Notes under the pieces: generated by a model
Database searches by the model: none
Told to the model about the DNA's origin: nothing
What the model saw: only the letters and a program-made list of their open reading frames with translations
Assembly (NCBI GenBank): GCA_015478665.1
Contig: JADMII010000009.1
Span: forward strand, 1 to 64,000
Length of the DNA stretch: 64,000 nt
Direction: 5' to 3'
Source of the DNA: Dehalococcoidia bacterium
GTDB taxonomy: Bacteria; Chloroflexota; Dehalococcoidia; DSTF01; JACRBR01
Made by a program: the position numbers and the translations under genes
Shown: one piece after another, positions 1,059 through 47,815 of the stretch
Numbering within the stretch: position 1 is the stretch's first letter
How the letters are laid out: each line of letters begins with the position of its first letter

Positions 1059-1145
1059 GATGTCGGACGTTCGATGTTGGTTGGCGGGTGTGCGCGCCCA
1101 CGCCTGCGGTGAACGAGGCGATGTTGGATGTCGGACGTTGGATGG
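1059..1145 (+). repeat. Degenerate 7-bp-period repeats
   Basis: Two patches in the spacer before dapB, around 1059-1080 and 1120-1145, reuse the words GATGTCGGACGTT, GATGTTGG and GGATGTCGGACGTTGGATGG. They align with a seven-base period (gatgttg / gatgtcg / gacgttg). A further seven-base run (cccacgt twice) lies at 1187-1203. Similar arrays occur in other spacers of this window. Confidence 0.6.
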
Positions 1146-1226
1146 CGTGCGAGCCGAGAGCGATCTCCGCTTTCCCGTTGTCTCCCACGTCCCACGTCCC
1201 ACCGCCCGGCAGCCAGCCGCCCGGAG

Positions 1227-12241: not shown

Positions 12242-14737
12242 TTACTTCACCGTCAGCGTGCCCTTCATCTGCAGCGGATGGACATCGCACTGGTAGGAGT
12301 ACGTGCCCGGCTGCAGGTTCATGGTCAGCGTGTCGGTCGCCGGGCCGGGCTTGATCGGCGTCGCCGCGACGCTCTGGCCGTTCGCATCACTCCCCTTGAA
12401 GAAGTGGATGTTGTGCGGGATGCCGCTGTCCTTGTTGACGAACGTCACCTTCACCGTGCCGGCCGAAGCGGTGAGCGTCGTCGTGTCGAAGGCGATGTTC
12501 TGGCCCGTGACGGTCAGCGTCGCGCCCGTCGTCGTGCCCGAAGCCGTGCCGCTCGCCCGGGGCGAAGGCGTCCCGGACGCGGCCGGCGACGCCGTGCCGT
12601 TCGCGGCCGGCGTGCCCGTGCGCGAGGCGGCCGGCGTGCCCGGCGTGGTCGTGCCCGTCGCCTTCGCCGCAGGCGTCGGCAGCGAGTTGCCGGCGCCGAC
12701 CCGCAGCGCCACCAGCGACGGCGTGGCGCCGACGCCGGCCGGGAAGATGATCGTGTCGCCGGAGACGGCCGGCCAGCCGTTGATGCCCGCCGGCAACTGC
12801 GCCCGGTACACCTGCTCGCCGGTCTTCGCGTTGAAGCCGTACAGCGTGCCATCGAACGTCGTCGTGAAGACGATGTCGTTCACGACCGTCGCCGCGCCGT
12901 AGTTCGCGCTCGGCAGCTGCTTGTCCCACAGGTACTGGCCCGTGTTCACGTCAATGGCGACCAGCTCGCCCGTGCCGCCGCTGAAGTCGAACTTCGACAC
13001 ATCGAGCCCGCAGGCCGTGTAGAACGCTGCGAGGTTGTTGACCGGCACGTAGACGACGCCATTGGCGTAGGCCATCGGCGTCTCGACGCCGCCGAGCGGA
13101 CCCGGCAGCACCTGGACGCTCTGGTTCTGCGGCAGCGTCTGCAGGTTGTCGTTCATGTGCTGGCCGACCGCGACCTTCCACACGACGTCGCCGGTGTTCC
13201 GGTCGAACGCCACGACGTATCCCAGCTTGCCGGCGCCGATGACGATATCGCGCTGCTTCCCCTGCGCGCTCGACGTGGCGAGGATCGGCGACGCTTCGAA
13301 GTCCAGGTCAAACAGGTCGTGCGCCTTCACCTGGTGGTACCAGGCGAGCTGCGCCGGCGTCCCCTTCAGGGGCACGTTCGCCGTGTTGCTGTTCGAGGAT
13401 CCCTGCGGCGGCTGACCGCCGCCGCCCTCGACCGCCGGCGCGTTGCAGTTCGGCGAGGGCGGTGTCGCCGCTGCCGTCGGGGAGCCCGCCGGCGCCGTGC
13501 CGGTCGCGGGCGCGACGGTGGCGTTGCCCGGGACGCCAGGCCCGCTCGTCGACGGCGTGCCCGTGCCGCTGGCCGATGGCGTCGTGCTGCCACTCGCCTG
13601 CGTGCCGCTGGCCGACGGCGTCGTGCTGCCACTCCCCTGCGTGCCGCTCACCGACGGCGTCGTGCTGCCACTCCCCTGCGTGCCGCTCGCCGACGGCGTC
13701 GTGCTGCCGCTCGCCTGCGTGCCGCTCGCCGACGGCGTACCCGCCGGCTGACTGCCGGAAGATGGCTGTGGCGCCAGCGAGATCATCGAGTCGGTGTAGA
13801 GGTTCGGACCCGGGCGGCTGCTGCCGTTCGGGAACTCCCTGGTGCCGGGGAACGGCGCCGGGTTGCCGATGCCCCAGAACGACCGCCCGCTCGTCGCGTC
13901 GATCGCCGGCGGGTACCAGGCGCCGCCGCCGCTGTTCACGTTCGGGTTCCCCCACCGGTTCGGCGATTCGACGGTGTCAAAATTCCAGAGGATCTCGCCC
14001 GTCTGCTGGTTGAGGCCGTAGAGGACGCCGGTGTCGCCGCCCTTATAGAAGCTCTGTCCGGTGCCGGGCACCGTGCTGACCCAGACCGTGTTGTCATACG
14101 GGGTCAGCTGGATCGTGATGCCCTCGCTGTCGCTGCGGCTCAGCTTCGTCTGCCAGAGCTGGTTGCCGTTCGTCGCATCGAGCGCGACGACGCTGCCATC
14201 GTTCAACGGCACGAACACCTTGCCATAGGCGACGCCCGGGCCGTTGGGGCCGGATGCCGGCTGGTTGTAGTCCTTCTTCCACTTCATCTTGCCGGACTGC
14301 AGGTCGAACGCGTAGACGTTGCTCGCGAGGTCCTGCAGATAGACCGTGCCGCCGCTGATGATCGGGTTGCTGGCGGCGTTCCCGAACTGCGCCGAACCGG
14401 GGATCTTGAACGTCCAGGCGACGCCGAGCCTGCCGACGTCGCTCGAGTTGATGGTCGAGCCGTTCGCGGCGCGCGTATTGGCGTAGTCGCTGTTTGCCAG
14501 CGGCCACTGATTCGCGTTCTGCGAGACCTCGGGTGGGACGCCGGCCGCAGCCTGGGCGCCGCCCGTGGACGTGGCGCCGGCGCCCGGCGTCGATGCGCTG
14601 CCGGACGGCGGCGTCGCGGTGCCGCTGCCCTGCTGCGCGCTGGTGATGCCGCCGGCGCCGATGAGGATCGCTGCGGCCAGCAGCGCGCCGGCGCTGACGA
14701 TGGCGAAGAGGAAGCGTGAACGGAGACGACGGTGCAT
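12242..14737 (-). CDS. Secreted PQQ-propeller protein with C-terminal cupredoxin domain
   Basis: An 831-residue exported protein. A signal segment (residues 3-37) precedes an eight-bladed quinoprotein-alcohol-dehydrogenase-like propeller with repeats such as LYGLNQQTGEILWNFD, VVAFDRNTGDVVWKV and VDVNTGQYLWDKQ. A low-complexity tract of 13-residue SGTQ-SGSTTPS repeats interrupts the propeller (DNA at about 13563-13740). The last ~95 residues form a type-1 copper cupredoxin with IPHNIHF and YQCDVHPLQM, giving plausible His, Cys, His and Met ligands. It probably works as a surface electron-transfer dehydrogenase, with electrons passing from PQQ to Cu. The PQQ ligands are not verified, so the propeller could be structural. 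The ATG at 14737 is chosen; one at 14749 is possible. Confidence 0.88.
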   Translation of the reverse strand: MHRRLRSRFLFAIVSAGALLAAAILIGAGGITSAQQGSGTATPPSGSASTPGAGATSTGGAQAAAGVPPEVSQNANQWPLANSDYANTRAANGSTINSSDVGRLGVAWTFKIPGSAQFGNAASNPIISGGTVYLQDLASNVYAFDLQSGKMKWKKDYNQPASGPNGPGVAYGKVFVPLNDGSVVALDATNGNQLWQTKLSRSDSEGITIQLTPYDNTVWVSTVPGTGQSFYKGGDTGVLYGLNQQTGEILWNFDTVESPNRWGNPNVNSGGGAWYPPAIDATSGRSFWGIGNPAPFPGTREFPNGSSRPGPNLYTDSMISLAPQPSSGSQPAGTPSASGTQASGSTTPSASGTQGSGSTTPSVSGTQGSGSTTPSASGTQASGSTTPSASGTGTPSTSGPGVPGNATVAPATGTAPAGSPTAAATPPSPNCNAPAVEGGGGQPPQGSSNSNTANVPLKGTPAQLAWYHQVKAHDLFDLDFEASPILATSSAQGKQRDIVIGAGKLGYVVAFDRNTGDVVWKVAVGQHMNDNLQTLPQNQSVQVLPGPLGGVETPMAYANGVVYVPVNNLAAFYTACGLDVSKFDFSGGTGELVAIDVNTGQYLWDKQLPSANYGAATVVNDIVFTTTFDGTLYGFNAKTGEQVYRAQLPAGINGWPAVSGDTIIFPAGVGATPSLVALRVGAGNSLPTPAAKATGTTTPGTPAASRTGTPAANGTASPAASGTPSPRASGTASGTTTGATLTVTGQNIAFDTTTLTASAGTVKVTFVNKDSGIPHNIHFFKGSDANGQSVAATPIKPGPATDTLTMNLQPGTYSYQCDVHPLQMKGTLTVK
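13563..13740. repeat. 39-bp in-frame tandem repeat inside the quinoprotein gene
   Basis: About four and a half copies of a 39-bp unit (core GACGGCGTCGTGCTGCCACT) encode a 13-residue Ser/Thr/Gly/Pro linker repeat. The copies differ at only a few positions, which points to recent expansion or frequent copy-number change. Confidence 0.85.
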
Positions 14738-28431: not shown

Positions 28432-28527
28432 GCGGGCTGGCACTGACCGTGGGGACTGCGTACTGGTACCTGTTGATTGGCGGCTGGTAGGTGGCAACCC
28501 GGGCTGTTGCTCTGGCCGGCTCCGCGG

Positions 28528-31248: not shown

Positions 31249-31582
31249 TCCACAGCTGCACGCAGACGAGGGGCGATGGAGGTCGCCGGCCGGAGGCCGC
31301 GCGCGCGGACGAGGGCGGTGTTCTGTCATCGTTGAGCGAAGCGAAGGCTCCCTCCGGCGCTCGACGCTGCGCCACACCGAACGGCGCACGCAGATGGACA
31401 GACGACGGTGATCGAAGTCAGAAGTTGGAGGTCGGCGGTCTGAGGCCACGCGGGGTTGAGGGGGAACCGCAGATGGCGCAGAGGGGACGCAGTGCAACCC
31501 GCCTGAGTGCATCCGTGGGTCAGCCGTCTGCGATACATGCTTCTCCCTCGCCCCTTCCCATGCACCCGTGGACCGACCGGCG
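31249..31582. other. Intergenic region, 334 bp, rich in repeats
   Basis: No gene is supported. It holds the second GAGCGAAGCG repeat (31322-31370), a heptamer-period patch (31417-31445: gaagttg/gaggtcg/gcggtct) and a stretch with repeated CGCAGATGG/CGCAGAGG words around 31467-31492. Confidence 0.5.
31322..31370. repeat. Intergenic GAGCGAAGCG repeat, copy 2
   Basis: TTGAGCGAAGCGAAGGCTCC followed by CCTCCGGCGCTCGACGCTG, matching copy 1 at 30578-30625 in the same orientation. Confidence 0.65.
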
Positions 31583-34760: not shown

Positions 34761-34790
34761 GGGAGAGGTTGGATATTGATGTTTGGATCC
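34761..34790. repeat. Degenerate 7-bp-period repeat
   Basis: GGTTGGATATTGATGTTTGG in the spacer before the lipase-like gene aligns with a seven-base period (gttggat/attgatg/tttggat). Confidence 0.45.
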
Positions 34791-35739: not shown

Positions 35740-35877
35740 GCGGGCGACGGATTCGGACGGAGCCGCGCTGAGGCCGGGTTGGGCTTTGAGCTCCGGGCGC
35801 ACGTAGATTGAGGCGGACGGGTGGGATTGATTCGCAGATGATGCCGGCGCCCGTAGATGCGGAGAGACCCTCGCGTC

Positions 35878-35935
35878 CGCTGTCTGTTGTCGGTTCTCCG
35901 CGGACAGCCGTCTGCTGTCTGCTGTCGCTTGATTG
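35878..35935. repeat. Heptamer array before the DegT gene
   Basis: The run reads as eight consecutive degenerate heptamers (ccgctgt, ctgttgt, cggttct, ccgcgga, cagccgt, ctgctgt, ctgctgt, cgcttga). It lies about 60 bp before the nucleotide-sugar aminotransferase start. Confidence 0.7.
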
Positions 35936-37256: not shown

Positions 37257-37290
37257 CCCAACCTCCAGCTTCCAACCGCCAACCACCGCT
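37257..37290. repeat. Heptamer array between the DegT and Gfo/Idh genes
   Basis: cctccag/cttccaa/ccgccaa/ccaccg: four degenerate heptamers right after the aminotransferase stop codon and about 20 bp before the promoter of the next gene. Confidence 0.6.
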
Positions 37291-37321: not shown

Positions 37322-38353
37322 ATGAGCGATACGATCCTGCGCGCGGGCGTGATCGGCCTCGGGGCGATGGGCGCGCACCACGCCCGCGTCTACGCTGAGA
37401 TGCCGGGCGTCGAGCTGGTGGCGGTGTGCGATGCCGACGGCGCGCGCGTGGCGCAGGGCGCCGGCGAGCGCGGCATACGCGGCTACAGCGACGCGCGGGC
37501 GATGCTCGACGGCGAGCGCCTCGACCTCGTGAGCATCGCCGTGCCAACGCGCGCGCATCTCGATGTCGCGCTGGACGCGATCGCGCGCGGCGTGGCGCTG
37601 CTGATCGAGAAGCCGCTCGCCGCCACGCTCGACGAGGGAGCGCGGCTGCGCGCTGCGGCCGCGGCGGCCGGCGTGCCGATGACCGTCGGGCACATCGAGC
37701 GGTTCAACCCGGCGGTGCTGGCGATGAAGGCGCGCGTACAGGCGGGCGAGCTGGGTCGGGTGCTGCAGGTGCATGCGCGCCGCGTCGGACCGTTCCCACG
37801 GCGCGTGCGCGACGTCGGCGTCGTCCTCGACCTGGCGCCGCACGATATCGACCTCATGCGCTTCATCACCGGCAGCGAGGTGACGCGCGTGCAGGCGGAG
37901 ACGGAGCAGCGCATCAACACCGACCACGAGGACATGCTGAGCGGGCTGCTGCGCTTCGCGAACGGCGTCGTCGGCGTGCTCGATGTCAACTGGTTGACGC
38001 CGACGAAGATCCGCGAGCTCGCCGTGCTCGGTTCGCGCGGCATGTTCATCGTCGATGAGCTGGCGCGCGAGCTGACGTTCTTCGAGAACGACTTCCATGC
38101 CCGCGACCAGCAGGGCGACTGGGCGGCGCATCACCTGAAGGGCGTCAGCGAAGGCCGCCGCACCAGCATCGTCATCGACAAGCGCGAGCCACTGCGCGCC
38201 GAGCTCGAGGCCTTCGCCCGCACGGTCGCCGACGGCGCGCCGCCCGCCGTCACCGCCGACGACGCGCTCGCCGCCATGGCTGTCGCCGAGGCGCTGGTGC
38301 GCGCGGCGGAGACGCACGCGGCGATCGAGCTCGTGCAGCCGGCGCCGGCATGA
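37322..38353 (+). CDS. Gfo/Idh/MocA oxidoreductase (WbpB/WlbA-like)
   Basis: A 343-residue NAD(P)-dependent sugar oxidoreductase. The Rossmann loop is GVIGLGAMGAHHARVY, the signature lysine is in LIEKPLA and the conserved VGHIERFNPAV follows. The C-terminal alpha/beta domain has DLAPHDIDLMRFITGSE with the catalytic His. Flanked by a DegT aminotransferase and a UDP-HexNAc dehydrogenase, it fits the 3-dehydrogenase step (WbpB/WlbA) that prepares UDP-GlcNAc-uronate for amination. It probably has its own leaderless promoter (TACACT at 37310). Its stop codon runs into the heptamer array at 38352. Confidence 0.92.
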   Translation: MSDTILRAGVIGLGAMGAHHARVYAEMPGVELVAVCDADGARVAQGAGERGIRGYSDARAMLDGERLDLVSIAVPTRAHLDVALDAIARGVALLIEKPLAATLDEGARLRAAAAAAGVPMTVGHIERFNPAVLAMKARVQAGELGRVLQVHARRVGPFPRRVRDVGVVLDLAPHDIDLMRFITGSEVTRVQAETEQRINTDHEDMLSGLLRFANGVVGVLDVNWLTPTKIRELAVLGSRGMFIVDELARELTFFENDFHARDQQGDWAAHHLKGVSEGRRTSIVIDKREPLRAELEAFARTVADGAPPAVTADDALAAMAVAEALVRAAETHAAIELVQPAPA

Positions 38354-38490
38354 AGCTCGCAGGTCGCCGGTGGCAGGTCGCAGGTCGGTCGTCGGCGGCC
38401 GGCAGCCGTTCGCCGGCACGAGCGTTGCTCTCTGCTGTTGGCTGTTTGCTGTCTCCGCTCGCAGCTCGCAGGTCGCAGGTCGCCGGTACT
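38352..38490. repeat. Long heptamer array between the Gfo/Idh and UDP-sugar dehydrogenase genes
   Basis: About 19 consecutive degenerate heptamers can be read in one phase, e.g. gctcgca, ggtcgcc, ggtggca, ggtcgca, ggtcggt, and later ctgctgt, tggctgt, ttgctgt, ctccgct, cgcagct, cgcaggt, cgcaggt. Two word families, CAGGTCG-like and CTGCTGT-like, grade into each other. It fills nearly the whole spacer and touches the upstream stop codon. Confidence 0.75.
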
Positions 38491-38546
38491 CCATCGGCCG
38501 GCGCGTTGCTCCTGGCCGTGTGCCGCCCGCTGCCCGGATCCCATCG

Positions 38547-47760: not shown

Positions 47761-47815
47761 CGGTCGCAGGTCGCAGGTCGCAGGTGACGGTGTCTGGTGG
47801 CGCCCCGGCAGGTGT
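47761..47815. repeat. Heptamer array after the thiolase gene
   Basis: cggtcgc/aggtcgc/aggtcgc/aggtgac/ggtgtct/ggtggcg: three near-identical heptamers that then degrade, directly after the stop codon at 47759. Confidence 0.7.

Follow-up and report, generated by a model that had tools for sequence, protein, structure and literature searches.

The window that we analysed, a stretch of 64 kb with a GC content of 71% (G000:C27:1-64000), comes from the genome of an uncultured Chloroflexota bacterium, whose assembly amounts to 2.67 Mb in 66 contigs; no 16S or other rRNA gene was found in this assembly. A spacer between a GFO/IDH/MocA oxidoreductase gene and a UDP-glucose/GDP-mannose dehydrogenase gene holds the main array of tandem heptamers. 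Between 38352 and 38490, the identity at lag 7 was 0.66, compared with about 0.29 at the same lag across the whole window. The left block of the array begins directly at the TGA stop codon (38351-38353) of the oxidoreductase gene, and its GCAGGTC words run from 38359. The earlier note had read the region as about 19 heptamers in one strict phase. Instead, we found two blocks in different registers (Table 1). The drift of words that the note had also described was borne out: within the right block, the words change in phase from TGCTGTT through GGCTGTT, TGCTGTC, TCCGCTC and GCAGCTC to two copies of GCAGGTC.

For comparison between species we used draft assemblies of relatives, among them two sister species of the same genus (G001 and G002) and three members of the same family from other genera (G003, G005 and G006). 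In the sister species the same spacer measures about 50-75 bp and carries ACAGCAA-type words, and in G003, G005 and G006 the same gene pair lies 0-5 bp apart. Within the genus, both the sequence and the orientation of the main-spacer words differ between species. On the simplest reading, the gap between the two genes would have widened as arrays grew within the bacterium's own genus.

Seven further arrays of period 7 had been listed for the window. Five of them, at 1059-1145, 31417-31445, 35878-35935, 37257-37290 and 47761-47815, passed our scoring, while those at 34761-34790 and 28466-28495 were at chance level here (Table 1). The spacer orthologous to the 34761 case holds GGAGGTTGGA-type arrays in G001 and G002, with a score of 11.8 in G002; the one orthologous to the 28466 case holds CCACCCT arrays, which score 10.1 and 8.2 in G001 and G002, respectively, and whose lengths differ by a single 7-bp unit. 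The spacer of the short array at 31414 is 334 bp long in the bacterium's own genome and about 40 bp long, without the array, in both sister species. The window also contains a 39-bp tandem repeat (13562-13738; 4.5 copies, 94% matches) within a long minus-strand reading frame, which is unrelated to the heptamers.

Table 1. Heptamer arrays, weak candidates and the main spacer in the 64-kb window
Feature	Position	Strand	Period-7 score	Words	Remarks
Array	1120..1223	+	14.7	GGATGTT/GGATGTC, then TCCCACG x3	TCCCACG also found by TRF
Weak candidate	28466..28495	+	5.0		Not above chance
Short array	31414..31447	+	9.7	GAAGTCA/GAAGTTG/GAGGTCG	
Weak candidate	34761..34790	+	4.1	GGTTGGA/GATGTTT	Not above chance
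Array	35875..35926	+	15.1	CTGTTGT/CTGCTGT	
Array	37258..37287	+	9.5	CCAACCT/CCAGCTT/CCAACCG	5 bp past the end of a DegT/DnrJ-type aminotransferase gene
Main array, left block	38354..38415	+	21.7	GCAGGTC type	Register 6 mod 7
Main array, right block	38426..38487	+	26.2		Register 3 mod 7 (38433-38487)
Spacer with main array	38354..38546	.			193 bp; basis: orthologous spacers
Array	47762..47785	+	13.7	GGTCGCA x3.4, exact	TRF 100% match; 2 bp past the end of a thiolase-like gene

For the statistics, 1.06 Mb of the bacterium's own genome was sampled in stretches (40% of the genome). Genes were called with a simple codon model, with approximate starts, and 593 spacers of at most 400 bp each, 102 kb in total, were scored. 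Segments of lag-p matches were scored for p from 4 to 21 in spacers, in coding DNA and in dinucleotide shuffles. At a score of at least 9, the spacers held 49 period-7 segments, compared with 5.2 in the shuffles; at a score of at least 12, they held 17, compared with 0.6. The other periods between 4 and 13 showed little or no excess, the highest being period 6 (18 against 5.4 at a score of at least 9), and period 14 was raised as a harmonic of 7. Exact match runs of 7-9 bases at lag 7 were doubled (49 against 22), those of 10-13 bases numbered 9 against 0.3 expected, and those of at least 14 bases 4 against 0. No period-7 excess was found in the coding DNA of the sample. Overall, the period-7 signal is real, specific to this period and restricted to spacers, and the excess over shuffled spacers on which the earlier note had staked its claim is confirmed. 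Confinement to a single assembly, which the note would have taken against itself, is not what we found either: the excess recurs in the sister species of the genus (16 against 1) and in the family (12 against 0), where several loci had been chosen for carrying arrays and densities are not estimates, and, more weakly, at the class level (8 against 1), where periods 6 and 9 are raised too.

Most arrays in the bacterium's own genome are degenerate, and many in its relatives are nearly perfect. The further apart two units lie, the less similar they are: in the family's long arrays the similarity drops from 0.84 to 0.64 over a distance of seven units, and in other phyla it drops from 0.71 for neighbouring units to 0.42 for units eleven places apart. 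Variants occur in blocks that keep the phase: a run of CAGCCTC is followed by a run of CATCCTC (L322), CAGCGAC by CAGCCTC (L325), and TGCTGTC by TGTTGTC (L330). One locus of G006 (contig C13, L328:6712-6930) holds a higher-order array of about 220 bp, in which (ACAACAG)3-4 blocks alternate repeatedly with (AAACAGC)2-3 blocks. Transitions between units seemed to be in excess in the family's long arrays (0.80), but this was discarded, because those arrays had been picked by R/Y patterns; in unbiased arrays the transition fraction was 0.34 in the bacterium's own genome, 0.59 in the genus and 0.55 in the family, and it was 0.47 in orthologous DNA of G001 and G002.

The words themselves are drawn from a family-specific lexicon. 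The fit of the array words to one profile reached 158.9, against 126.5 ± 4.9 for random spacer heptamers; the excess was large over column-shuffled units and smaller over random spacer heptamers, and the latter comparison was kept. Pairs of arrays with the same word numbered 53, against 18 expected and a null maximum of 30. Doublets of TGCTGTY were counted 16 times in G001, 52 in G002, 17 in G005, 20 in G006, and once each in G007 and the bacterium's own genome, and none was found in the other 54 genomes searched. Doublets of GGARGYT likewise peak in the family; in these degenerate-word searches the mirror-word control was not independent, both mirrors being lexicon-type words themselves. CAGGTCG forms long arrays in many phyla, with other heptamers alongside; one such array is that of Zymomonas mobilis (L104). 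A word grammar drawn up by eye, NNRYNGK, did not prove universal, since AACCTTG and GGTTCAA arrays break it.

By the comparison of sister species, the repeats are lengthened and rewritten fast. Across orthologous, mostly coding DNA, G001 and G002 are 93% identical, and the same spacers hold other words or other lengths. Past one stop codon, G002 carries a 49-bp ACAGCAR array and G001 an array of about 125 bp, in which ACGGCAG turns into ACAACAG x7; the bacterium's own genome has no array there. At another site, the ACAGCAA words of G002 correspond in G001 to GGAGGTC words with degenerate ACAGC words after them. At L183:17166-17353, the bacterium's own GGTGACC x4 stands against CTGTYGT repeats in G001. 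Only a single clean indel of one 7-bp unit was seen between G001 and G002, the remaining gaps measuring 19, 24 and 114 bp. The mean length difference to the orthologues in G001 and G002 was 191 bp for spacers with an array in the bacterium's own genome and 47 bp otherwise, a descriptive figure, as the array spacers were partly preselected. An array was also present in the orthologous partner for 6 of 16 spacers with an own array and for 4 of 29 without one, although these pairs are few and non-random. Taken together, the drift within arrays and the differences in length and word between sister species speak for expansion and decay rather than one frozen repeat, as the earlier note had supposed.

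We weighed several other explanations of the arrays. The idea that GC-rich spacers merely seem periodic by eye, through chance or composition, suits the 34761 and 28466 cases and some GC-only segments (CCGGCG type), which lie at chance level; for the class of arrays as a whole it is refuted by the dinucleotide shuffles and by the other periods, and its probability is practically nil. Many arrays lie just past stop codons, as would be expected of RNA hairpins with a role in ending or stabilising transcripts. Within 10 bp of a stop codon we counted 24 arrays against 9.6 expected (ratio 2.5), and a ratio of about 1.6 was already reached by chance segments of other periods. Of the earlier claim that several arrays touch a stop codon, what stands is a mild preference, produced in part by the trimming of start calls. 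Folding-energy z-scores of array spacers equalled those of other spacers (-0.31 against -0.25, P = 0.75), and complementary or inverted arms were not enriched at the bacterium's own arrays, so hairpins are a very improbable cause. Maintenance as G-quadruplex DNA, as for GGGNATC in Xanthomonas and Nostoc, seems to us barely conceivable. Some words, such as CAGGTCG and GGTGACC, do give GG every seven bases, but neither GG nor CC occurs in the consensus of 13 of the 54 strong arrays, which refutes a quadruplex as the general cause; moreover, a motif of four GGG runs is absent from the main array, and the GGGNATC doublet occurs once in the 1.06 Mb sampled. The common word profile, the lexicon and the mild proximity to stop codons would also agree with selected binding sites, occupied by one DNA- or RNA-binding protein per 7 nt and regulating the neighbouring genes. 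Such sites are nevertheless an unlikely explanation: the same site holds different words in sister species, the decay of unit similarity with distance leaves no held consensus, the bacterium's own arrays show no strand bias (24 against 24), and start codons are not preferred, the arrays no more than 10 bp from one numbering 4 against 6.7 expected (starts are approximate). Since no hairpin, folding, strand or quadruplex sign was found in the bacterium's own genus and the preference for stop codons is only mild, most arrays are probably nearly neutral.

G001 and G002 contain a MITE-like element of about 168 bp (L240:2003-2178 in G002, L241 in G001, and L286-L291), with CTAG on both sides as a duplication, inverted ends (TGCC..CCA.GTTGAT / ATCAAGTTGGA.GGGCA) and inner arms that consist of TGGARRR heptamers in inverted orientation. 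It is inserted at one site in G001 and G002. There are about seven copies in G001 and one in G002; none was found in the bacterium's own genome, where the empty site reads GGACTAGATG. As the make-up of this element shows, mobile elements can carry heptamer arrays. Of 264 heptamer arrays examined in unrelated phyla, 93 lie no more than 100 bp from an inverted partner, compared with 6 in controls. Hairpins of the (word)n-loop-(complement)n form are thus frequent among those arrays (L049-L167, for example L081:1191-1264, L092:3893-3970 and L152:426-530), and Roseisolibacter loci (L050, L072, L086, L091) are among the examples. Both the element and the inverted partners would fit a history in which arrays travel in miniature mobile elements and the spacer arrays are decayed copies. 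We hold this history to be improbable for the arrays at hand, in view of the lack of enriched inverted arms and of the fact that most of the bacterium's own array spacers share nothing beyond the array. Outside its own locus, the main spacer is matched almost wholly within its array words, its flanks being essentially unrepeated, and on this ground the main spacer was not counted as a MITE. The bacterium's own genome also has a dispersed intergenic repeat (L031:19355-19686, L181:12414-12746, L033:13786-13997, L175:1877-1992, L046:4847-5004), with about 75-79% identity over 60-125 bp around CCCCGGCCC-TCCCCGCTGCGGTG.AGAGGGAGCGCGCGACGA; two copies adjoin heptamer arrays.

We think it fairly probable that the heptamer arrays come about by tandem duplication and loss in 7-bp steps, mutation and local re-expansion. 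Arrays would arise and lengthen through local duplications, in tandem and 7 bp at a time, with slippage during replication or repair synthesis as the likely route. Point mutation would then let them decay, and partial re-expansion of mutated units would make the word drift along the array. The decay of similarity with distance and the blockwise variants are what local duplication with mutation predicts, and not what a fixed consensus predicts. Over the short divergence that separates sister species, entire arrays come, go or are overwritten. Arrays may persist in spacers, often right after stop codons, because non-triplet insertions are purged from genes. If slippage alone acted, independently and on random seeds, the words would be expected to be random, but the words here share a profile and recur, and specific ones are confined to the family. 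That unlinked sites of one family use words in common points to a further bias: some heptamers might be favoured at birth, or array sequence might be copied between sites. It seems unlikely to us that, in place of chance slippage, a dedicated process with a 7-nt step fills spacers with words of the lineage's lexicon and replaces these words in phase; if true, this would account jointly for the fixed period, for words that unlinked sites have in common and for sister species having different words at one site. The preference of long bacterial tandem repeats for seven bases has been noted since 2007. The present family lets the birth, drift and loss of arrays be traced stepwise and can tell slippage from copying between sites. 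Spacers of this kind are poor ground for seeking conserved regulatory motifs.

Among known heptamer repeats, quadruplex-type GGGNATC heptamers of Xanthomonas and Nostoc have one consensus and G-runs (PMC4692102). They resemble the present arrays in being intergenic with a variable unit number; a quarter of the strong arrays here, however, lack any GG or CC, and the units do not as a rule contain a run of three or more G. TAACTGA direct repeats occur in Beggiatoaceae, some Cyanobacteria and Bacteroidetes and lie just upstream of start codons in BOGUAY; relatives of their bearers have shorter, repeat-free spacers, Microcystis mixes various heptamers with TAACTGA, and a protein-binding regulatory role has been proposed for the repeats of Beggiatoaceae (PMC4679880). 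These, too, are intergenic tandem heptamers with shorter spacers in relatives, but they have one word near starts, whereas the present arrays have many words and no start-codon preference; neither the 1.06 Mb sampled from the bacterium's own genome nor the sample from the genus held a TAACTGA doublet.

A likeness to the STRR of cyanobacteria had been suggested for the arrays. CCCCAGT is an STRR-type word, the only one that we tried, and no doublet of it was found. The account in PMC4692102 names three STRR heptanucleotides in Calothrix PCC 7601. Several tandem heptanucleotides within one genome are common to both; we nevertheless reject membership, as the host is a member of the Chloroflexota and each site has its own word.

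The closest match is with long simple-sequence repeats (LSSR), among which, according to Mrazek 2007 as related in PMC4679880 and PMC4692102, heptamers predominate in bacteria, in intergenic positions and in scattered phyla; the mechanism proposed there was slippage, with a polymerase contact length of 7 nt (PMC4679880). The present arrays share the tandem 7-bp units and the intergenic position, their exact runs exceed chance, and unit length 7 predominates over the other lengths from 5 to 11. They differ from LSSR in being mostly degenerate, in having their own word at each site and a family lexicon, and in differing at orthologous sites between sister species. The predominance of heptamers and the idea of polymerase slippage are thus already published; the taxon, the lexicon and the turnover of words at the level of species are new here, and this turnover is unusually clear.
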